47,441 nucleotides of DNA from Candidatus Cloacimonadota bacterium (GTDB taxonomy: Bacteria > Cloacimonadota > Cloacimonadia > Cloacimonadales > Cloacimonadaceae). The position numbers and the translations under genes were made by a program. Positions 3,029 to 47,426 of this stretch are shown here, piece by piece (position 1 is the first letter of the stretch; every line of letters starts with the position of its first letter). Under the pieces are notes generated by a model. That model did not search any database. It was not told the DNA's origin and saw only the letters and a list, made by a program, of their open reading frames with translations. The DNA is taken from NCBI GenBank assembly GCA_020532215.1, contig JAJBBF010000053.1, positions 1 to 47,441 of the forward strand, in the 5' to 3' direction.

Positions 3029-4930
<1,902 letters not shown>

Positions 4931-8460: not shown

Positions 8461-11400
8461 TTATTTGACCGCGATCTTGATCACGCGTTCGGACCTGTTC
8501 ACGCCGTCATTGGCAACCACGCGGGCAAAATAGGTACCCCGCCCGACTTTGGCGCCGGCGGTATTTTTCAGATCCCAGGGAATCCGTATCTGGTTTGAAT
8601 TCTGAGTCTCGCTGGGTATTGTCTGTACCTTTTTACCGGCAAAATCGTAGATCGTGACGGTCAGGGTCACATTGTTGTTTCTGTTCAGGATCACCACGAA
8701 CTCGGTTTGATCCGTGGCGGGATTCGGCCAGGCATAGGACGCGTCGCTGATATCCAGATCCCCGGACTGGTAATACTCGACTGTGGAGGCGCTGGCAGGG
8801 CTCTCGGCTCCGTCGTAAACAGCGGTAACGTAATACTCGTAGGATACGTCCATCTCAATGCTGTAGTCGTCGTAGTAGTAGTTTCCATCCACCTGGGTGT
8901 TCACCAGGGAGGTGTTGATCTGGGCATATTCCGCGTCAGCCAGTTTGCGGCGGTAAACGTTGAACCCATCCAGGCCTTTGGCCGCCCCGGGCAGGTTCCA
9001 GAGAACGCGGATGTAACCGGCATAGGTGAAGCCGCGCACATCCACCGGCGCGGAGAAGATGGTGTAAGTGGCGCTGGCGACGGGGCTGGGCGTCCAGTCA
9101 GGTTTGTAAGCCCGGGCTGAGATCACCATATCCTGGGCGAAATTCGGAACCACGATCGGTTCCGAGTAGAGCCCGGATTCAGGGGTGGGATCCGTGCCAT
9201 CAATGGTGTAGCGGATCTCGGCCCCTTCGGTGGGAGACGAGATCACCACGAAGACAGGAGCGCCGAAAGTGCCACCCGGAGGAGAGAACACCGGCGGCGA
9301 AACCGTTCCGGTGATCGTATAGACCGCTGCCTGGGTTTCTGAGGGGATCCAGCCTTCGGCAAAACCCTTCGCTTTGACAGTGGTGGTGGCATTCTGAGGC
9401 AGAGTGATCGGCGCTGTGTAAGCCGCAGAATATACTGTAGGCTCGCTTCCGTCCGTGGTATAGCGGACAGTGGCGTTCGCGGGCAGGACCGGAACGGCCA
9501 GAGTTACGTTTTGAGCGCTTTGGTATGTTCCGGGGGTTGGGCTGAACAGGTCTTCCTCCAGCTGAACCTGGCCGGTAACGCTGTAAACACCGGCCCAAGG
9601 CTGGCTGGGAATCCAGCCGTCCTTGAAGGCGCGGATCGTGATCGTGAAATCGATGGAATTCAATCCAATGCTGACAGGCGCAGCAAAGACAGGCGATGCT
9701 TCCGTGGGAGTGGAACCGTCCGTTGTATAGCGGATCGTGCCGCCCGTGGGATCCGTACCGCCAACCGAACTGACGCTGATCGGCTCAGTGTATACTCCCG
9801 GAGCCGGGCTCAGATAAGGCGGCAGCAGCTGCATCTGTCCGGTGAGGACATACTCGGCTGTGTAGGTTTGGCTGGGGGTCCAGCCAGTCCTGTAAGCTTT
9901 TACCTTCACGGTAACGTCCGCGGGAGCGAAAAGCTGGATCGGCTGCGTGTAAGCCGGATAGGACTCATTGGGCTCATTGCCATCCAGGCTGTAATGCAAG
10001 GTGGCGCCGGCAGGGGCTGTCTGGGTGTTCAGAACCACCGCGATGTCAGTTGTATAGGTTCCGGCCGCTGGAGTGAAAACCGGAGCCGGGATAGTAACTG
10101 TACCTGTGATGGTATAGTAGCCAACGTACACCGGGCTGGGAGTCCAGTTGGTGGCAAAAGCCCGGGCCCGAAGCTCGTAGCTGTTGTTCAGCTGCATGGG
10201 GATCGGAGAAGTGTAGAGAGGCGAATCCGCCAGGGGTTCACTGCCGTCCAGGGTGTAGCGGATCTGGGACCCGGCAGGAACAGTGGAGGCGTTGATGCTG
10301 ATGGATTGGGCGCCCGGATAGGTTCCGGGAGCGGGATCGAAGACCGGCGCCGCGATGCTGGCCTGCCCGGTGATGGTGTAGGTGGCGGTGTGGGTCGCGC
10401 TGGCGGTCCAATCCGTCTTGAAGGCCTTCACCTTGATGGTGGTGTTGCTGTTTAGGGGCAGGCTGATCGGAGTTGTGTACACAGATGATGCAGCCGTGGG
10501 CTCGCTGCCGTCGGTGGTATAGCGAATGGTGGCATCAGCCGGTATCGTTTCGGATACAGAGATGATCTGGCTGGTCTGGTAGATCCCTTCGGGTGGCGTG
10601 AACACCGGGGTCTGGAACACGATCTGCCCGGTGATCACGTAGGTCGCGGTCACGGTCGCGCTGGGCGTCCAGTTTGCCTTAAAGGCCTTCACGCTGATGG
10701 TGGTGCTGCTGTTCAAAGGCAGATTGATCGGCGCGGTGTAAGCCGGGGAATTCTCCGTGGGCACCGATCCGTCCAGGGTGTAGCGCAGCGTTGCCCCGGC
10801 CGGAGTGGTGCTGGTATTCAGAGTGATCGATTGCGCGGTCTGATAGGTACCCGCCGGCGGAGAAAACACCTGCGCCGGCAGCTGCACCTGGCCGGTGACG
10901 GTGTAGGTGGCAGAGTAAACTTGGCTGGGAGTCCAGCCGGCCAGGAAAGCCACGGCCTTGACCGTCAGCGTGGTGTTCAGCGGTATTATTACCGGAGTGC
11001 TATAGATCGGCGAAGTAGCTGTAGGATCGCTGCCGTCGGTGGTATAGCGGACCGTTCCCCCCGCCGGGCTGGTGGAGGTGTTGATCACCACGGACTGGGC
11101 GGTTTGATAGGTCCCGGAGGCCGGAGTGAAGACAGGTTCAACGATGCTGAGCGCACCCGTGATGTTGTAGGTGGCGCTGTAGGTCTGGCTGGGCAGCCAG
11201 TTGGTGAGATAGGCTTTCACCTTGATCGTGGTCAGGGAGCCCAAAGCCAGCTGGATCGCGGTGCTGTAAACCGGAGAAGTTGCTGTCGGCTCGCTACCGT
11301 CCAGGGTGTAGCGCAGGGTAGCGCCAGCCGGGGTGGTGAGCGTGTTCAGGGTCACCACCTGCGCGGTCTGGTAGGTTCCCGCGGGCGGGGTGAAGACAGG

Positions 11401-14400
11401 CTCGGCGATCGTCACCTGGCCGGTAACGGTATAAACCCCGGTGTGGATCTCGCTCGGCTGCCAGTTGGCGGCGTAGGCGCGCACCCGGATGGTGATGCTC
11501 TGGCCGTTGCTCACCTGGATCGGAGTGCTGTAAACGGGCGAGCTTTGGTTCGGGTCGCTGCCGTCCAGGGTGTAGCGCAGGGTGGCGCCGGCCGGGATCG
11601 TGGTGGTGTTGATCGCCACGGACTGCGGCGAGGTATAGAGCCCCGGGCTGGGGTTGAAGACAGGCAGGGTGATGGTCACGGCGCCGGTGGTGGTATAGTT
11701 TCCGGTCTGGATCTCGCTGGGCGCCCAGTTGGGTTTGAAAGCCCTGACTTTAAGGGTCAGCGAGGTTTCCAAGGGCAGATCGATCGGGGCGCTGTACTGC
11801 GGCGATAGCTCGGTGGGATCGGTGCCGTCGATGGTATAACGCACAACCGCGTCGGCCGGCGTGGTGCCGTTTACCGTGATCTGCTGGGCCGTGGTGTAAA
11901 CTCCGGGAGCGGGTGAGAAAACCGGGGTCTGGAACGCGACCTGGCCGGTGATCAGATAGGTGGCGGAAACGGTTGCGCTGGGCAGCCAGTTGTCCCTGAA
12001 GCCTTTCACCTTAATGGTGGTGGTGCTGTTCAATCCCAGCTGGATCGGGGCCGTGTAGGCTGGCGAGAACTGGCTGGGCTCGCTGCCGTCCAGGGTGTAG
12101 CGCAGGGTCGCTTCCGTTGGCAAGAGAGGAGGATTCAGGGTTATTGACTGAGCGGTTTGGTAGGTGCCGGCGGCAGGATCGAACAGCACGTCCGGCAGAG
12201 TGACCTGGCCGGTCATCACATAGGTGGCGCTATAGAGCGGGCTGGCGATCCAGTTTTCCCGGAAAGCCCTCGCTTTCAGGGTTATGGTGGCGTTCAAAGG
12301 CAGATCTATCGGTCCGGTATAGACCTCAGAAGTGGTCTGGGGATCGCTGCCGTCGGTGGTATAGCGGATGGTCGCGTCGGCCGGGATGGGATCGTTGATG
12401 CTCACCGTCTGGGCTGTGGTATAAACTCCGGCGGCCAGGCTGAAAATGGGAGGTGTGATGATCACCTGCCCGGTAACGATATAGGTTTCGTGGGTGGTGG
12501 TGCTGGGTTGCCAGCCCGGCTTGAAGCCTTTGGCGTTGATGGTCATCGTGCTGTTCAGCGGCACCACAATGGCAGTTGTGTAGAGGGTGGAATCCTCGTC
12601 CGGCTCGCTGCTGTCGGTGGTGTAGCGGATCGTGGCTCCGGGCGTGGAGGTGGTAAGCACCACAGGCGTGGCCTGGGTGTAGATTCCGCCCACCGGAGAG
12701 AAACTTACATCGGCCACGGTTCCGGTCACCGTATAGCTTGCGGAGACCACCGGGCTCGGGTTCCAGCCATCCCGGTAAGCCATGGCCTGGATGAACAGGT
12801 TGCTGTCGGACGGGATGTTAATCGGAGCCATGTACAGCGTTCCGTTAGTGGGTGATGGCACCGTTCCGTCTGTGGTATAGTGGATCAGGGCGTTCTCGGT
12901 GGTTGTGGATATCTCCACCTGGATCGGTTGATAGTAGGTTCCCGAAGGATATGAGAACATCGGCGCGGCGACCTCCGGCACGATGATGTCGATCAGGTAG
13001 CTGGCGTTGGAGATCAGCGAGGTGTTCATACCGGTTTTATAGGCGATTGCCTTGATCGTGGTGGTCTCGGAGATGTTCACCGGGCCGCTGTAGATCGTTC
13101 CCACCGTTTCGGAAGGTTCGGTGCCGTCAATGGTGTAGCGGATGGTGGCCTCGGGGGTTTGGGTGCTGATGGTCACCTGGATCGCTTCGTTGTAGATACC
13201 GGCCGGGGGATCGAAGACAGGGGTCTGGACCGTCTCAATCGGGATCACGATCACATACTGCACCGTGGCGATCAGGGAGGGATCATAGCCGTCCTTGAAC
13301 CCGCGCGCTTTGATGGTTACATTGCTATCCACCACAAAACCGCCCGCATAAACTGTGCCGTTCTCCAGAGAGGGTTCGCTGCCGTCTGTGGTGAAAACCA
13401 GTGTGGCATCAGGAGTGGTGGTGCTCATGGTAACGGTTTGCGCGGCATTATAGACTCCGCTGGGCGGCAGGATCACCGGCGTGGCCACATCCGGAAGCGG
13501 GATGTTGATATCGAAGTCCGCGCTGGCTATCGCCGAGGGATACCAGTTTTCCTTGGACGCGATGGCCTTCAGCAGCAGATCCTGATCCACCAGGACGGGA
13601 TCCAGGGGATCAAAGGCCGGGCTGGTGCCGGGGATGGGATCGCTGCCATCCAGGGTATAGCTGATCAGGGCTCCGGGTGTAACAGTGCTCAGATTCACAT
13701 ATTGGTTTTCCGTAAAGGTGCCGCCATTGGGAACGATGCTCACCGGGCTCACGTAGAAGTTGTACACAGCGGCGCTGATGTTCGAGGGTTCCCAGTTGGC
13801 GCGGTAAGCCCTGGCTTTGAGGGTGGTGTTCTGATTTATCTGGACAGGCGTGGAATAGATGGTCCCGTTCAGTTCGCTGGGGTCGCTGCCGTCCGTGGTG
13901 TAATAGATTGTGGAACCGGCCGGCAAGGTGGTGATGGCAACGCTGAAGGGGCTCAGGTAATCCCCGCCGGGGACGGAAAAGAGCGGATCGGAGACCGGCC
14001 CGTTGATCACATAGCTTTGGGATATTACGTTGGAGCTGATCCAATTGCCGCGGTAGGCGATGGCCTTCACCGTTGCCGTGGTAGTCAATTGGAAGGGAGC
14101 CAGATACAGGTCTCCGTATTGCGGTGTGGGCTGGCTTCCGTCCAGGGTGTAGCGGATGCTGGCGCCGGCTGTGCCAACGCTCATCGTGATGGTCTGGGCG
14201 GAGGCGTAGCTTCCGCCGGCTGGACTGATGGCGGGATTGCTGACCACGAAGAAGTATTCCGCGGTGGCAACCGCCGAATCCAGCCAATTGTCCAGATAGG
14301 CGTAGGCTTTCACGGTCGTGTTGCCTTCCAGCGCGAATGGCGCGGTATAGGTGATGCCGTTATCCAGCGAGGGCTCGCTGCCGTCCAGGGTATAGCGGAT

Positions 14401-17400
14401 GGTGGCGGCAGCCGGGATCACGCTGATGCTGATTGTCTGAAGCGTGTTGTAATATCCGGCCGTGGGACTGATGATGGGAAGCGCCACTGGTCCGTTGATC
14501 ACATAGGAAGCAGTGGATACGGAGGAGTCGTTCCAGCCGTCCAGCCAGGCAAAGGCCTTGACAATGGTATTGGCCGAGATCTCGATCGGGCTGTTGTAAA
14601 CGCTACCGTTATCCTGGGTGGGGGTGCTGCCGTCCAGCGTGTAAACGATGGTGGCCGCGGCAGGGGTGGCGGAAAGCGCGACCATCTGCGCTTCAGCGTA
14701 TTGCCCGGAAGGCGGGTCGAAAACTGGGGCGCTCACGGTTCCGGTGATATAATACTGCGCGTCGGTGACCCCACTGGCGTTCCAGCCTGTTTTATAGGCT
14801 TTGGCGCGCAGCAGCGTATCCGCGGCAATGTTCACCGGAGTGCCGGCCACATAAATGGTTCCGTTGGTCTGGCTGGGTTCGGAGCTGTCGCTGGTATAAT
14901 AGATGGTGGCATCGGGCGGATTCACCGAGATGTAAACATCCACCGGGGAGGTATAGGTTCCGGGTCCCGGGGTGAAAACGGGGTTGGCGATGTTGCCGAT
15001 GATGGTATAGATGGCGCCGTGGATCTCCGAGGGGCGCCAGTCCGTGCGGTAGGCTCTGGCCTTGAGGGTGGCGCTGCTGTTGATCAGGATCGGTCCGTCG
15101 TAGGTGGATCCGTATTCCAGGCTGGGATCCTGGCCGTCCAGGGTGTATCTGATCACCGCGTCCGCGGTGGCGGAGCTGATGCTGACCGTCACGGATACAT
15201 CGTGCGTGCCGCCGTCGGGGTCAAATGCGGGCAGGCCAACCGTTCCGGTAACCTGATAACTGCGCTCGGCCACGTCGCTGTTGATCCAGCCGGCCTGAAC
15301 GGCGATGGCTTTGATGGTATAGCTGGTTTCCAAACCGATGGGGATCCCGGCCACAGGGTCGTAAAGGGTGGAGGCTTCCGTGGGTTCAGAGCCATCCGTG
15401 GTATAATGGATGGAAGCTTCAGGGGCGCTGGTCAGGCTGAGCCGCACCACGATCGGGTCAAAGTAGAGCCCTGCCGCAAGGTCAAATTCTGGCGCGGGCA
15501 GGATGCCGATGCTGTAGATCCCTTCGGTGATGGAACTGGGATCCCAGTTTTCCTTGAAAGCGCGGGCTTTCACCTGATGCAGGCCGTTGGCCAGGGAAAC
15601 CGGGCCCTCGTAAAGGAATGACGCGCGCGTGAGCGGAGAAGGTTCGCTGCCGTCCAGGCTGTAATAGATCGCCGCGTTAGCGGTGCCGGTGCTCATCGCC
15701 AGCTGGATCGGGGCGGAAAAACTGCCGGGCAGGGGGTCGAAAACCGGGGCTTCGACCGTGCCGGTGATCGTGAACAGGCCCTCGTGGATGTCGCTGGGAT
15801 AGAGGCCGGGATACTGGGCCAGGGCTTTGACCGTGGTGGTCTCGCTGACCGGGATGGGCGAGGTGTAAAGCAAGCCTGTGGCGGCGTCCGGGTCGCTGCC
15901 GTCCAGGGTGTAATAGATCGAGGCTCCGGCGGGAAGGGTGGAAGCGCTGATGCTCACCGAGACCGGCGTGGTGCTGTATCCGGGCGCGGGGTCGAAAACC
16001 GTGCCGTTGGCATAGGGCAGAAAAACCGTTTTGGTGCGGACATCGTAGTAGTAGCTGAAGGTTTCGCTGGCCTGCCAGTCGCTGAGGTAGGCCTTGAAAG
16101 TGATCCAGGTGGGGTTGGTAAGCTGGATCTGCTGTCCGCTGTTGTAGACCTGCGCGTTGGGGTTGTCCGGGCCGGGCAGGCTGTTATCCAAAGTGTAGTA
16201 AACTGTGGCGCTGGCAGGAGCTACCATCAGTCCTGTGATTTCCACAGCCAGAGACTCGCCCTGGTCGATGAGGTAAAACTCACCATCCGGAAGCGGCGGC
16301 GGGGTCATGCTGTGGGAAACTATCTGCACGGTTCCCGTAACCTGGTAGGTTTGGGATACGATCGCGCTGTCCAGCCAGCCTTCCCGCGCGGCCAGGGCTT
16401 TGATCATCAGCGTGGTTTCCGCCGCAACCGTGATCGGCAGAACGTATTCCTCGGTTCCGGGGGAGCCGGGAACCGGATCGCCGCCGTCCAGCGTGTAATA
16501 GATCGTGGCCGCCGGGTCGGAAGAGTTGAGGGTAACCTCAAGCGGCGCGTAATACAAGCCTCCCAGAGGGTTGAAAACAGGATCGGCAACCGTTCCAGTG
16601 ATCCGGTAGGACTGGCTGGTGACCTGCGAGGGCGGGAAATCCGGATAGGTGAAGAAAGCCTGGATGGTCACGTTGTTTTCCACATCCCCAAGCGCGTCCA
16701 CAGCGATCGGGGCTGAATACACCGGCGAAGTTTCCGTGGGCGGGGTACCGTCCGTGGTATAGTGGATCACAGCTCCTTCAAAACCGGCCGGGGGAGCCAG
16801 CGTGACGCTGATCCCGCTGGTGTAGGTGCCGCCCGCGGGATCGAACAACGGTCCGGAGGGGCTTACATTAACCGTCCAGATGATGCTGTCCGTAGCCTCA
16901 GCATCCGAGACTTCGCAGCTTAGGGTCTGGGTGCCGGGAATGCTGAACTGCAGCTCCAGGCTGGCGGTGGTGGAAACCACCTCGGAGAAGGGAACCCCGT
17001 CCTGGCTGCCGCTGTGCGTCCAGGTGTAGCTAAGATCGTCGTTTTCCACGTCTTCGGCGGTGACCGCGAAACTTAGCGTGTCCCCCTGGTCGATGTTCTG
17101 CGTTAGCTCTTCCGGCTGCCAGTCCACTATCTCCGGGGGATCGTTGATGTTCAATACATTGATATAAATGGTCTGAGAGCTATAGGCGTTGGACAGCCTG
17201 TCCACAGCCGTCAGTTCGTAGCTGGCGATGCCGTTGTAATCCTGCTGGGGCGCGAAAGTCACCAGGGAACCGGTTCCGGCAGGTTCCTGGCTCACGTCGA
17301 TGGGGTATTCGGCAAAAAGCACGTTGAGGTCGAAGTTCGTGGGGTCGGCCGAGTCGATGCAGCTGATGTAGTCCTGAAAATCTATCTGCAGGGCTGTTTC

Positions 17401-17937
17401 TTCGTTGGTGAAGAAATTGTTGCCATCCGGCAAACCGCTCCAGACAGGCGGATCGGGTACCGGGGTCACATTCAGGCGGATATTGCCGATCACAAAATCA
17501 CCGCTGATCGGTTCAGTGGCTACCAGAAAGAGGATCTCCCCTCCATTCCAGTTCGCGTTGATGGGCTCAAACTGCAATTTCAGGGGGTTGCCCGGATCCG
17601 GTTGGGTTACGGTGAAATGAACCGGATCAAAGTAAAAAGACAGGGTCAAGGCCACATTTTCCGGATTATCTATGTGCCGGGTGAAATCCTTGATCCAGGC
17701 CGTGTCTTCCAGAAACAGCCCGGTTTCGGGATCGGCAATATCTGTCGAGTCCGGAAGGTTGTAAGGCGAAGCTACGAAGTTAAAGGAAAAATCCCTCGTC
17801 TGGGCGTTGCTGGTGGCGATCAGTTCCAGGATCTCCGCGGGGATCTCCGCATCGGAACCGGTGGCCAAAACTCCGGATTGCGCGAAGAGAGCGCAAGCGC
17901 TCAGCATCACGATCACAACAAGAAAAAATCTATTCAT
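8461..17937 (-). CDS. Giant secreted surface protein with tandem CHB_HEX_C/Fn3-associated-type repeats, FN3-like domain and FlgD-like T9SS-type C-terminal sorting domain
   Basis: 3158 aa; signal peptide MNRFFLVVIVMLSACALFAQ; ~30 repeats of consensus VFxPxxGTYxxxxxVxxxxxxxxAxIRYTLDGSEPxxxxxxYxxPIxxxxxxTIKAxAxxxxWxPSxxxxAxYxITGxV; C-terminus SYAWPNPATDQTEF...GRGTYFARVVANDGVNRSERVIKIAVK. Confidence 0.9.
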   Translation of the reverse strand: MNRFFLVVIVMLSACALFAQSGVLATGSDAEIPAEILELIATSNAQTRDFSFNFVASPYNLPDSTDIADPETGLFLEDTAWIKDFTRHIDNPENVALTLSFYFDPVHFTVTQPDPGNPLKLQFEPINANWNGGEILFLVATEPISGDFVIGNIRLNVTPVPDPPVWSGLPDGNNFFTNEETALQIDFQDYISCIDSADPTNFDLNVLFAEYPIDVSQEPAGTGSLVTFAPQQDYNGIASYELTAVDRLSNAYSSQTIYINVLNINDPPEIVDWQPEELTQNIDQGDTLSFAVTAEDVENDDLSYTWTHSGSQDGVPFSEVVSTTASLELQFSIPGTQTLSCEVSDAEATDSIIWTVNVSPSGPLFDPAGGTYTSGISVTLAPPAGFEGAVIHYTTDGTPPTETSPVYSAPIAVDALGDVENNVTIQAFFTYPDFPPSQVTSQSYRITGTVADPVFNPLGGLYYAPLEVTLNSSDPAATIYYTLDGGDPVPGSPGTEEYVLPITVAAETTLMIKALAAREGWLDSAIVSQTYQVTGTVQIVSHSMTPPPLPDGEFYLIDQGESLAVEITGLMVAPASATVYYTLDNSLPGPDNPNAQVYNSGQQIQLTNPTWITFKAYLSDWQASETFSYYYDVRTKTVFLPYANGTVFDPAPGYSTTPVSVSISASTLPAGASIYYTLDGSDPDAATGLLYTSPIPVSETTTVKALAQYPGLYPSDIHEGLFTITGTVEAPVFDPLPGSFSAPIQLAMSTGTANAAIYYSLDGSEPSPLTRASFLYEGPVSLANGLHQVKARAFKENWDPSSITEGIYSIGILPAPEFDLAAGLYFDPIVVRLSLTSAPEASIHYTTDGSEPTEASTLYDPVAGIPIGLETSYTIKAIAVQAGWINSDVAERSYQVTGTVGLPAFDPDGGTHDVSVTVSISSATADAVIRYTLDGQDPSLEYGSTYDGPILINSSATLKARAYRTDWRPSEIHGAIYTIIGNIANPVFTPGPGTYTSPVDVYISVNPPDATIYYTSDSSEPSQTNGTIYVAGTPVNIAADTLLRAKAYKTGWNASGVTDAQYYITGTVSAPVFDPPSGQYAEAQMVALSATPAAATIVYTLDGSTPTQDNGSVYNSPIEISANTIVKAFAWLDGWNDSSVSTASYVINGPVALPIISPTAGYYNTLQTISISVIPAAATIRYTLDGSEPSLDNGITYTAPFALEGNTTVKAYAYLDNWLDSAVATAEYFFVVSNPAISPAGGSYASAQTITMSVGTAGASIRYTLDGSQPTPQYGDLYLAPFQLTTTATVKAIAYRGNWISSNVISQSYVINGPVSDPLFSVPGGDYLSPFSVAITTLPAGSTIYYTTDGSDPSELNGTIYSTPVQINQNTTLKARAYRANWEPSNISAAVYNFYVSPVSIVPNGGTFTENQYVNLSTVTPGALISYTLDGSDPIPGTSPAFDPLDPVLVDQDLLLKAIASKENWYPSAIASADFDINIPLPDVATPVILPPSGVYNAAQTVTMSTTTPDATLVFTTDGSEPSLENGTVYAGGFVVDSNVTIKARGFKDGYDPSLIATVQYVIVIPIETVQTPVFDPPAGIYNEAIQVTISTQTPEATIRYTIDGTEPSETVGTIYSGPVNISETTTIKAIAYKTGMNTSLISNASYLIDIIVPEVAAPMFSYPSGTYYQPIQVEISTTTENALIHYTTDGTVPSPTNGTLYMAPINIPSDSNLFIQAMAYRDGWNPSPVVSASYTVTGTVADVSFSPVGGIYTQATPVVLTTSTPGATIRYTTDSSEPDEDSTLYTTAIVVPLNSTMTINAKGFKPGWQPSTTTHETYIVTGQVIITPPIFSLAAGVYTTAQTVSINDPIPADATIRYTTDGSDPQTTSEVYTGPIDLPLNATITLKARAFRENWIASPLYSATYVMTGQVTLPDVLFDPAAGTYQTAQSITLNPPLLPTEATLRYTLDGSEPSQFSPAYTAPIQLGLNSTTTIKVKGFRDNWLPSATVSATYLITGQVAFQTPVFSPAPGVYTTAQQITVNGTTPADAVVRYTIDGTDPTELSPQYSAPIDLPLETSLTLKVRAFKPNWAPSEIQTGNYTTTGAVTITLPVFNPSPGLYTSPQSVAINTTTIPAGATLRYTLDGSDPNQSSPVYSTPIQVSNGQSITIRVRAYAANWQPSEIHTGVYTVTGQVTIAEPVFTPPAGTYQTAQVVTLNTLTTPAGATLRYTLDGSEPTATSPVYSTAIQLALGSLTTIKVKAYLTNWLPSQTYSATYNITGALSIVEPVFTPASGTYQTAQSVVINTSTSPAGGTVRYTTDGSDPTATSPIYSTPVIIPLNTTLTVKAVAFLAGWTPSQVYSATYTVTGQVQLPAQVFSPPAGTYQTAQSITLNTSTTPAGATLRYTLDGSVPTENSPAYTAPINLPLNSSTTISVKAFKANWTPSATVTATYVITGQIVFQTPVFTPPEGIYQTSQIISVSETIPADATIRYTTDGSEPTAASSVYTTPISLPLNSNTTIKVKAFKTDWTASATHTATYTITGQASIAAPVFDPAPGTYPGAQSISINASTVPAGSQIRYTLDGSEPLADSPLYTSPIPMQLNNSYELRARAFATNWTPSPVYVGYYTITGTVTIPAPVFTPAAGTYTTDIAVVLNTQTAPAGATLHYSLDGNEPNESYPAYTQPIQLFAPADVTVKVKAYRTGWTPSQTYTAEYVLTGQMQLLPPYLSPAPGVYTEPISVSSVGGTDPTGGTIRYTTDGSTPTEASPVFAAPVSIGLNSIDFTITIRAFKDGWIPSQPWAGVYSVTGQVQLEEDLFSPTPGTYQSAQNVTLAVPVLPANATVRYTTDGSEPTVYSAAYTAPITLPQNATTTVKAKGFAEGWIPSETQAAVYTITGTVSPPVFSPPGGTFGAPVFVVISSPTEGAEIRYTIDGTDPTPESGLYSEPIVVPNFAQDMVISARAYKPDWTPSPVASATYTIFSAPVDVRGFTYAGYIRVLWNLPGAAKGLDGFNVYRRKLADAEYAQINTSLVNTQVDGNYYYDDYSIEMDVSYEYYVTAVYDGAESPASASTVEYYQSGDLDISDASYAWPNPATDQTEFVVILNRNNNVTLTVTIYDFAGKKVQTIPSETQNSNQIRIPWDLKNTAGAKVGRGTYFARVVANDGVNRSERVIKIAVK
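9046..16848 (-). repeat. Tandem ~260-bp coding repeat array (about 30 units, mean 86.7 aa)
   Basis: Repeat units delimited by hand in the translation; 2601 aa cover 30 recognisable YTLDGS/YTTDGS units. Confidence 0.9.
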
Positions 17938-43713: not shown

Positions 43714-44451
43714 TTACCGCCGGTAAAGGTGATGCGCGATGATCCCCGCTGCCACGGCCACATTCAGGGATTCCATCTCCTCCCCCATCTCGATCCGCAA
43801 GGTCTTGGCAGCCAATGCCTTGATCTCGTTTGAGATACCCCGCGCTTCGGAACCCAGCACTATCACCGTGGGCCGGCCCTCCTCAGGGCTGTATGAGCGC
43901 AAAGGCTCGCCGGAGGCGGCTTCGGTGAGGATCAGCTCCGCCTTCAGATCCTTCAGCTGAGCTGCGCCCAGAATCTGGAATGGGACTCTGAAAACGCTGC
44001 CCAGGGAAGCCCGGATCACCTTGGGCGAAGATACTTCCACGCAGTCCGCGGACAGCAGCAGGCAGTCCAGATCAAAGGACGCGGCGATCCTGAAGATGGT
44101 GCCCAGGTTGCCCGGATCGCTGATCCCGTCCAGGTAAAATGCCTGCCTGAACTGCACTGGCCGCTCCCGCGGCAGCTCAAACAACGCAGCCGATCCTTGA
44201 GGATGATCGCTGCCGCAGATCTTGCCCAGTTCCCAATCCCGGAGTTGGAAAGCGGGAACACTGGCCCAGAGAGGGGAGCTGCCTTCAGTGAGATACTGCT
44301 CCAGGGGCTCGATGCCCCAATCCCGCAACTGACGCAGGCTGCGCAGACCCTCCACCACCACCTTGCCCTCGCTCAGCCGCCATTTTTTCTGCTGCAGTTT
44401 GCCCAGTTCCCGCCTTCTGTTTTGGCTGAGTTCCCTGGTTTTTTGCTCCAC
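43714..44451 (-). CDS. SpoU/TrmH-family 2'-O RNA methyltransferase (RlmB-like)
   Basis: LDGISDPGNLGTIFRIAASF, VIVLGSEARGIS, IEMGEEMESLNVAVAAGIIAHHL. Confidence 0.92.
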   Translation of the reverse strand: MEQKTRELSQNRRRELGKLQQKKWRLSEGKVVVEGLRSLRQLRDWGIEPLEQYLTEGSSPLWASVPAFQLRDWELGKICGSDHPQGSAALFELPRERPVQFRQAFYLDGISDPGNLGTIFRIAASFDLDCLLLSADCVEVSSPKVIRASLGSVFRVPFQILGAAQLKDLKAELILTEAASGEPLRSYSPEEGRPTVIVLGSEARGISNEIKALAAKTLRIEMGEEMESLNVAVAAGIIAHHLYRR

Positions 44452-44474
44452 TTTTCCAATCTCCTGAATTTCAG

Positions 44475-44592
44475 TTATCTACGCACTTATCCACAAAATC
44501 CGTGGATTATCCACATTTTGCAATCCACTGTCCCGCAATGCTATATCCGGTTGTTGCTTACTTTCCACAAAGTTATCCACAGTTTATCCACA
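44475..44592 (+). promoter_or_regulatory. DnaA-box cluster (candidate oriC, datA-like titration site or DnaA-regulated region)
   Basis: Exact TTATCCACA at 44487-44495, 44507-44515, 44573-44581, 44584-44592; degenerate boxes at 44475, 44501(-) and 44561. Confidence 0.85.
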
Positions 44593-44613
44593 AAGTTCGC
44601 AAGACCGCTTTGA

Positions 44614-46323
44614 CTATAGAATTGCGAGTTTCAGGCGGCATGATCGTTTACCAACATTTAGGCTGAGGATAAAGATTCCGCGGCCCAGTTTGCGGAACTC
44701 CGGCTCGGCCGAGAGCAGCCAAATCCCCTCGCCGGGTTCGGCTTGGACGAAACTTTTACTCAAAACCTTCTGTCCCCGCGAGTTGTAAAGCTTCAGCTCC
44801 ACCGTTCCGGTGCTCCCCTCCGGCAGATACCACTTCGCGGAGGCCAGCGCTCTGCTGCTCACAGGATTCGGCGCCACCAGCAATTCCAATCCCGGCTCCG
44901 CGTAATCATAAGCCACATAGAGAGAATCGGAAATGGCGCCCCAGGGATTGACAGCCTCGATCTCCAGCCAGCCGGGGCCGCTGACGGGAACCCAGGCATA
45001 GAAAGTACTCTGGCCGAACTCCGGTTTTATAAAGATGGCTTCGCCGCCCTCCACCCAGGGGCGGGGTTTCACAATGTACCACAGCGAATCGGGATAGACC
45101 GGCTGTCTCAGTTCCAGCCTCAGGTTCGACAGCACCATACCCTGGCTCACCAGCTCCGGCGCGGGCGGCTGACCATGCGGGCCGTAAACCCGGTGCAGGA
45201 TCTGGAACCAGCGGTATTGCGCGAATTCCAGCTGGGCGTAGCGGTTCCACCAAACGTCGTAGTACTGCTGGTTGGCAGGAAACCACAGCGCCGCGGAACC
45301 CACCTCATGCGCGATGTTCAGGCTGCCGGAAGACACCACGCAGGTCTCCCATTTATCCTTCAGCGGACCCAAACCAGGCTCCCAGGTTTCACCCCAGGCC
45401 TCATCCATCCTGGAAAGCAATTCGCCAACATCGATGTCGTTGTAGCCGGTTCCCATTTCCCAACATTCGCTTCGGACCGGCAGCATGCCCATCGGCCAGT
45501 AACAGGATTTGCCGAGGAAAAAGTCCCGGAAAGCGCTGAAAAAGCTATTCAGTGAAGAGGTCCGTACTGCCGAGCAGGTGATGGGGAGGCTCAGATTGCC
45601 CGGATTCTGGCTTCCGCCGGCTTCATAGGATTCCAGATACGTTTGGCTGATCTGGCCCGCCACAGCTTCCGGATCATCGCTGCTGAACAGCGGGATCATG
45701 TCCTGATAGGGAAATCCGGCCACCGGTACCAATTCCTCCGAACCAACCACCAGATCTGCCGCGTCGACCACTTCGGCCAGCACTTCCAGGCTCTGCATGC
45801 TGCAGGCGTCAAAAACCAATATGTCCAGAGGCGGAATTCCGGTCAGGGCTTCCTGCAATTCGCCTTCGGAAACGCTGATCAGCGATTGCGAGCCCTCGTC
45901 CGGGCAGATCCATTTTGTTTCGCCATCCTTGAACCAATTGTCTCCATGGCCCCAGATCACCAGCATTTTCCGCTGGGAGGGATAGCGCTGAAAGCCCCAA
46001 TTGATAAAGTCTTTCAATGTTTGGGGATCGCCGCTGTCGATCGGGCCAAGATCCTCCAGCAACGGCGAAGAAATGTATGGAAGCGCGTCGGGGCGGATCT
46101 TGCGGCGCTGGCCGCCGGGATGTTCCGAATCCACCGGCATGTCCGATTGCACGATCAGGTCGAGGTTCGTGGGCTGGGGCACGGACTCCATGGCGTTGAT
46201 GTCCTGCGCGGCGTTTTGCCAGAGGTTGTTGTCCGCGGCCATATAGACCAGCACGGTCCAGTCCGCGGCGCCCAGGGGAAACAGTAAAGCGGATCCCAGG
46301 ATCGCAAGCAGTATCCGTTTCAC
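44614..46323 (-). CDS. Secreted clostripain-family (C11) cysteine protease with T9SS-type CTD (GTG start)
   Basis: WTVLVYMAADNNLW, MLVIWGHGDNW (His), DILVFDACSMQSLEVL (Cys); CTD APNPVSSRALAS...LKLYNSRGQKV...LGRGIFILSLNV...LKLAIL; signal peptide MKRILLAILGSALLFPLGAA from GTG 46323. Confidence 0.85.
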   Translation of the reverse strand: MKRILLAILGSALLFPLGAADWTVLVYMAADNNLWQNAAQDINAMESVPQPTNLDLIVQSDMPVDSEHPGGQRRKIRPDALPYISSPLLEDLGPIDSGDPQTLKDFINWGFQRYPSQRKMLVIWGHGDNWFKDGETKWICPDEGSQSLISVSEGELQEALTGIPPLDILVFDACSMQSLEVLAEVVDAADLVVGSEELVPVAGFPYQDMIPLFSSDDPEAVAGQISQTYLESYEAGGSQNPGNLSLPITCSAVRTSSLNSFFSAFRDFFLGKSCYWPMGMLPVRSECWEMGTGYNDIDVGELLSRMDEAWGETWEPGLGPLKDKWETCVVSSGSLNIAHEVGSAALWFPANQQYYDVWWNRYAQLEFAQYRWFQILHRVYGPHGQPPAPELVSQGMVLSNLRLELRQPVYPDSLWYIVKPRPWVEGGEAIFIKPEFGQSTFYAWVPVSGPGWLEIEAVNPWGAISDSLYVAYDYAEPGLELLVAPNPVSSRALASAKWYLPEGSTGTVELKLYNSRGQKVLSKSFVQAEPGEGIWLLSAEPEFRKLGRGIFILSLNVGKRSCRLKLAIL

Positions 46324-46346
46324 CGTTTCACCCCTCGCCGTTACGC

Positions 46347-47426
46347 TCAATAGTTGTATTCCCGGGCTTCCTCAAGACCGTTCAGAACCCGCAGACCGCC
46401 CTGGCAGAGTGCCTCCATCTCGCGTTCGCCGGGATAGAGCTTGATCGGGGCGATGAATTCCACCCGGGAGCTGATCTGCTGAACGATGTAGTCGTTATAG
46501 ACCAGGCCGCCGCTGAGGAAGATGGCGTCCACTTTGCCTTTCAGAACCGCCGCGCTGGCTCCCACCTCTTTGGCCACCTGATAGCACATGGCGTCGGTGA
46601 TCAGCTTCGCTTTGGCGTCGCCGGCGTCGATCCGCTTATTCACTTCGATGCCGCTATCCGTACCCAGATAGGCCATGAAACCGGCGGCCTTGGTGAGGTA
46701 TTTCACCAGTTCCGGATGCGTGTATTTACCGCTGTAAGCCAGCTCCAGCAGGTCTCCGATGGGCAGGGCGCCCGCCCGCTGCGGCGAAAAAGGACCCATA
46801 CCCAGCAGGGCGTTGTTTACGTCCACGACCCTGCCCTTGCTTATTGCAGCCACGGAAATTCCGCCGCCCATGTGCACCCCGATCAAGTTCGCCTCATCCA
46901 GTTTCCTGTCCAGTTCCGCGGCCAGCAAACGCGCTATGTAGCGGATGTTCAGGGCGTGCAGCAGGGATTTGCGCTCGATCTCCGGGATCCCGGAAATGCG
47001 GGCCAGTTCGCCAAACTCGTCCACCACCACCGGGTCCACGATGAAACCGGGAATACCCAGATCCCGGGCGATGGCGTCGGCGATGAAGGCGCCCAGCGCG
47101 GAAGCGTGGGTGCGGCCCCAGAGCGTGGGGTCGCGCAGGTCTTTTTTCATCGCCTCGTTGATCCGGAAAGTGCCGCCGGGAACGGGTTTGATCAGCCCGC
47201 CGCGGCCCACCACCGCCACCAGGGACCGCGGATCCACGTTGTGCTCCTGCATCGCCTCCAGCACCAGCTTCTGGCGAAACTCATACTGGTCGATGATGTT
47301 GGGATAGGGTTCAAGCTCCGCCGGATCGTGGCGCAGGGTCTTCTCAAACACCGGCTTGTCACCGTCGTGAACGGCGATCTTGGTGGATGTGGAACCGGGA
47401 TTGATGGCAAGAATAAGCTGGGACAT
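46347..47426 (-). CDS. buk: Butyrate kinase
   Basis: ILAINPGSTSTKIAV, GVHMGGGISVAAISKGRVVDVNNALLGMGPFSPQRAG, IFLSGGLVYN; AGGAGG upstream. Confidence 0.94.
   Translation of the reverse strand: MSQLILAINPGSTSTKIAVHDGDKPVFEKTLRHDPAELEPYPNIIDQYEFRQKLVLEAMQEHNVDPRSLVAVVGRGGLIKPVPGGTFRINEAMKKDLRDPTLWGRTHASALGAFIADAIARDLGIPGFIVDPVVVDEFGELARISGIPEIERKSLLHALNIRYIARLLAAELDRKLDEANLIGVHMGGGISVAAISKGRVVDVNNALLGMGPFSPQRAGALPIGDLLELAYSGKYTHPELVKYLTKAAGFMAYLGTDSGIEVNKRIDAGDAKAKLITDAMCYQVAKEVGASAAVLKGKVDAIFLSGGLVYNDYIVQQISSRVEFIAPIKLYPGEREMEALCQGGLRVLNGLEEAREYNY

Follow-up and report, generated by a model that had tools for sequence, protein, structure and literature searches.

A conserved DnaA-box module away from the replication origin in Cloacimonadota, probably a DnaA-control locus

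Four exact copies of the DnaA box TTATCCACA, all on the plus strand and confined to about 106 bp (positions 44487–44592), occur in a 47,441-nt stretch of DNA from a Candidatus Cloacimonadota bacterium (hereafter the window, which is contig C2 of an assembly of 178 contigs, 80% complete), raising the question of whether they mark a replication origin or another kind of site at which DnaA acts. An earlier note on this DNA had reported the boxes at 44487, 44507, 44573 and 44584 in one orientation, with start-to-start spacings of 20, 66 and 11 bp, in a 162-bp intergenic gap, and all of this was verified in the sequence. The gap spans 44452–44613 and separates two minus-strand genes. Box 1 occupies 44487–44495, box 2 44507–44515, and boxes 3 and 4 (44573–44581 and 44584–44592) form a tandem pair with a gap of 2 bp. 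The degenerate boxes mentioned in the same note are also present, as TAATCCACG on the minus strand at 44501–44509 and as CTTTCCACA on the plus strand at 44561–44569, with two mismatches each. The fifth TTATNCACA of the window lies inside the gyrB ORF (4791–4799) and there are no others in the window; the chance expectation across its whole length is 0.42, and 60 first-order Markov simulations never placed more than one TTATNCACA in any 106-bp stretch. The four-box cluster is far beyond chance. The genome to which the window belongs contains 37 exact boxes in 1.95 Mb, and the window module is the only cluster of at least three. The other close box pairs in this genome are 51 bp apart and are part of a repeat, 110 bp or more in length and with two TTATCCACA copies, found at no fewer than seven contig ends (C5, C35, C37, C47, C49, C72 and C103; loci L007, L015, L017, L021, L024 and L029); the repeat is probably the terminus of a mobile element at which the assembly broke.

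The module lies directly 3′ of a gene for a clostripain-family (C11) peptidase (44614–46350, minus strand; Pfam PF03415, E = 4.2e-40), upstream of which is an acetate/butyrate-kinase-type gene. On its far side is a gene for a SpoU/TrmH-type RNA methyltransferase (43714–44451, minus strand; PF00588, E = 4.2e-31), followed by a thymidine kinase gene. Conservation of the boxes in relatives, a check suggested in the earlier note, was assessed with a profile, R1, built from 28 module copies from both orders, the window copy included (44487–44592, plus strand, E = 2.0e-16). R1 matched 103 of 125 Cloacimonadota genomes, some of the matched copies being the profile's own training copies, whose matches are expected. 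The best match lay within about 500 bp of the 3′ end of a C11 peptidase gene in 73 of the 103 (hand count). Genomes nearly always had just one strong match, and weaker ones were mostly at dnaA; in the window's own genome, the module was the sole match at E ≤ 0.001.

The neighbourhood of the module changes between families. Within the window's own family, the only one in which the methylase is a neighbour, the boxes precede that gene at near-constant spacing. Boxes were absent beside the methylase gene in the order's other families, where the tandem pair was found directly 3′ of the C11 peptidase gene, the next gene being hisS or nadC. In f13, the second order of the class, the pair begins 6–8 bp past the peptidase stop, box 1 follows about 85 bp further, and the far-side gene is convergent in 8 of the 9 copies read. 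The far-side gene is thus the SpoU methylase, hisS, nadC or another, according to family. In the g5 genomes and some members of the window's own genus, the peptidase gene was not found and the module was retained; several f9 genomes had no recognisable boxes after the peptidase gene. The constancy of the module's position while neighbouring genes change indicates that it is the module that is conserved, and not the promoter of a gene. Its place and spacing are shared by the two orders of the class that were sampled, and the peptidase gene is probably a positional landmark and not a functional part. A literature search combining Cloacimonas or Cloacimonadota with replication origin or DnaA returned nothing relevant; the locus is apparently both deeply conserved and undescribed in this phylum. 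In three of the g5 genomes that have lost the peptidase gene (G016, G024 and G029), an ORF of about 100–118 amino acids lies between module and methylase (e.g. L153, 1264–1620).

The internal layout of the module was measured in 62 distinct copies, obtained by a search that demanded the tandem pair and a distance of 82–90 bp to box 1. The distance from box 1 to box 3 was 83–89 bp, being 85–87 bp in 51 copies and most commonly 86 bp; the spacing of box 3 and box 4 was 11 bp in all copies, by construction of the search. All 28 aligned modules, drawn from both orders, have TTAT and CAC in box 1, and boxes 3 and 4 recur in relatives. Box 2 is kept only in the closest relatives, and the degenerate box at 44561–44569 is partly conserved in the family alignment. 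The inverted box at 44501–44509 is the counterpart of an inverted box lying 14–15 bp from box 1 that is exact in several family relatives; it is absent in f13. The richest copy seen (G019:C1:8030–8157) has six exact boxes in one orientation, and the f1 copies contain a further conserved stretch, roughly TATAGAATTGTAAGCTTT, 18–40 bp past box 4 toward the peptidase gene.

Conservation between the boxes is concentrated mainly in YAANNNNYTG-N5-CARNNNNTTR, a symmetric motif with halves that fit the IHF half consensus WATCAANNNNTTR (as in PMC4585315). In the window it lies at 44521–44545 (consensus YAANNNNYTGNNNNNCARNNNNTTR), with one mismatch in the 12 fixed positions, and would be a candidate site for a DNA-bending protein. 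Its offset was fixed in 56 of the 62 copies. Mean mismatches were 2.61, versus 4.21 (s.d. 0.10) in shuffled gaps, although the motif was derived from the same alignment and the copies are related, so that the shuffles overstate significance; three altered control patterns gave means of 4.1–4.3. These statistics support an IHF-like site, without amounting to proof. The window contains eight such sites with at most one mismatch, which makes the motif weak alone, and an exact pattern combining the full consensus with the tandem pair was found in four genomes only, indicating that the motif is a tendency and not a strict sequence. Genes of the HU/IHF family are present, three of them in the window's own genome.

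A replication origin, as the earlier note had proposed, would be in keeping with a DnaA-box cluster in an AT-richer gap (41% GC, versus 58% in the window) and with the module's resemblance to the one upstream of dnaA. This was assessed in G021, the sole complete relative usable for locating the origin, which is of the same family and consists of one contig of 2,246,820 bp; the module-bearing contigs of G010, G016, G001 and the window were too short for their skew to bear on the question. Its skew was analyzed at fourfold sites over about half of the chromosome, with gene strand separated and overdispersion assumed. The best fit placed the origin at 25–75 kb, near dnaA (1 kb), and the terminus near 1.05–1.15 Mb (z = 7.7). 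Origins at 0 kb and 2,225 kb were 5.3 and 3.9 log units worse, respectively, whereas an origin at 450 kb, the position of the module, was worse by 28 units of log-likelihood and was rejected. The G021 module is at 447.17–447.28 kb, about 447 kb from dnaA or 0.20 of the chromosome, and dnaA has box modules on both sides. In most relatives, dnaA is flanked by two related modules of its own, and a simple composition test of the gap in the window showed no pronounced AT-rich unwinding stretch, the lowest 40-mer having 32.5% GC. The module is not oriC, and a chromosomal or additional origin at this locus is very unlikely. The distance of about 40 kb to gyrBA, taken in the earlier note as a hint of an origin, proved uninformative; its caveat that the genes on both sides are on the minus strand is true and carries little weight, as both loci have genes of either strand around them in the genomes analysed.

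The dnaA gene was not found in the window's own assembly, probably because this is 80% complete, given that all 12 genus mates have the gene. In the family, the exact tandem pair was found, where placeable, only upstream of dnaA, between dnaA and dnaN, and at the module, and a reversed control pattern had zero matches. In several relatives the dnaA-upstream module is likewise made of a box, an IHF-like motif and a tandem pair, with 112–116 bp from box to pair and the motif 38–39 bp after the box; others fit poorly. By their parts, the two modules can be regarded as akin in architecture. Through its sharing of parts with the relatives' dnaA-upstream module, the module also recalls the oriC1 half of the bipartite origins of Helicobacter and other Epsilonproteobacteria (PMC5043019), from which it differs in lying far from dnaA and in having 83–89 rather than 112–116 bp from box to pair. 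One reading of this kinship sees the module as a copy of the origin's dnaA-upstream half that has become detached and has been fixed at a single chromosomal site since the class ancestor; it would loop to the dnaA-linked modules to form a three-part DnaA complex over hundreds of kb that sets initiation. We consider this a long shot. In G003, of the same genus, two dnaA-like C-terminal domains were observed (G003:C24:7985 and G003:C7:29892), the C24 copy having no exact box within its 1.5-kb flanks.

The module is probably a non-coding DnaA-control locus of the datA/DARS type, situated away from oriC. A datA-like complex is the best inference from its anatomy, in which boxes in tandem, 2 bp apart, are combined with a remote box at fixed spacing and an IHF-like centre. 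DnaA would bind box 1, together with a partner box, and the tandem pair of boxes 3 and 4, whose 2-bp gap would suit head-to-tail assembly of ATP-DnaA. An HU/IHF-family protein that bends DNA may occupy the symmetric site, the bend joining the box 1 side and the tandem-pair side at a fixed distance. Such a complex would alter how much active DnaA is available and thereby help to set when the dnaA-linked origin fires. Most likely it would trap or inactivate ATP-DnaA once the locus has been replicated, as at datA; recharging of ADP-DnaA, as at DARS, is less likely. The module would also be compatible with DARS-like action or with titration alone.

In E. coli, minimal datA consists of one IHF site and four DnaA boxes and promotes ATP-DnaA hydrolysis (PMC10950094), and the spacing of box, IHF site and box matters (PMC4585315). 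The present module is similarly non-coding and away from oriC; it has about four boxes at constrained spacing and, between them, a putative IHF-like site (PMC10950094, PMC4585315). It differs in having exact boxes in tandem, separated by 2 bp, in its IHF-like motif, symmetric where that of datA is one-sided, and, as measured in G021, in its distance from the origin, which is about double. Its neighbours, C11 peptidase and SpoU methylase in place of the tRNA-Gly operon (glyV-X-Y) and queG, are also different, which is why it is not filed as datA itself. The datA-like or titration site proposed in the earlier note is supported in kind, given a non-coding place that is conserved and far from oriC and the boxes with an IHF-like site, but not as regards the datA neighbourhood. 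DARS sites recharge DnaA, and box gaps of 2–3 bp favour head-to-tail ATP-DnaA assembly (PMC8682772). DARS1 and DARS2 are, like the module, non-coding DnaA-box loci away from oriC; DARS action consists in stimulating the release of ADP from DnaA, and the boxes of a DARS core stand in opposing orientation. Chromosomal place matters for datA and DARS loci, and the relative distance of the G021 module from the origin, about 0.20, is nearer to that of DARS2 (0.21) than to that of datA (0.10) (PMC5010248). By contrast, the module has no conserved inverted pair outside the family, the inverted box being lacking in f13. As far as anatomy tells, it would be datA- or DARS-like and a member of neither by position. 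The DnaA-box clusters (DBCs) of Bacillus subtilis likewise lie outside the origin, where they limit initiation (PMC5010248); the module differs from them as a single element of fixed architecture, separated from the G021 origin by about 0.2 of the chromosome. There are several DBCs in B. subtilis, and they are near oriC.

Passive titration, whereby the cluster would only soak up DnaA with no effect on its bound nucleotide, is rather unlikely. High-affinity exact boxes would suffice for it, and B. subtilis provides examples of DnaA titration by box clusters (PMC5010248), but a sponge needs neither a fixed 83–89-bp spacing, nor an 11-bp pair, nor a central motif kept across orders, and three or four boxes per module provide little capacity. 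A DnaA-controlled promoter serving the SpoU methylase and thymidine kinase genes, in line with the DnaA-regulated promoter of the earlier note, seemed at first convincing across the family, where most genomes have the boxes about 30–190 bp ahead of the methylase start; thymidine kinase follows the methylase in the window. It was dropped on finding the module also beside the peptidase gene with other neighbours, and is now judged improbable: hisS, nadC or others take the far side in other families, a convergent far-side gene makes a promoter impossible in most f13 copies, and the small ORF separates module from methylase in three g5 genomes. Promoter activity could still be an added role in the window's own family.

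The constant place just past the peptidase stop, 6–8 bp in f13, would suit a role at the 3′ end of that gene as a transcription terminator or as a roadblock formed by DnaA, and DnaA can hinder transcription at E. coli datA and asnC (PMC10950094). However, the module stays where the peptidase gene was not found, in g5 and in some members of the genus, and a terminator needs neither a box 85 bp away nor a central motif, which leaves this explanation very improbable.

Few bacteria are known to have DnaA-control loci outside oriC, namely E. coli and its relatives and Bacillus; Streptomyces is a further example. In the present case, a locus has been kept in place across an experimentally little-studied phylum, so that evolution reveals the boxes, the spacing and the central site that matter. 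If the module acts on DnaA, as the favoured reading as a DnaA-control locus implies, remote control sites would be older and more widespread than thought. Elsewhere in the window, at 8461–17937 on the minus strand, there is an ORF of 3158 amino acids with many similar repeats of about 80–90 residues, which looks secreted.
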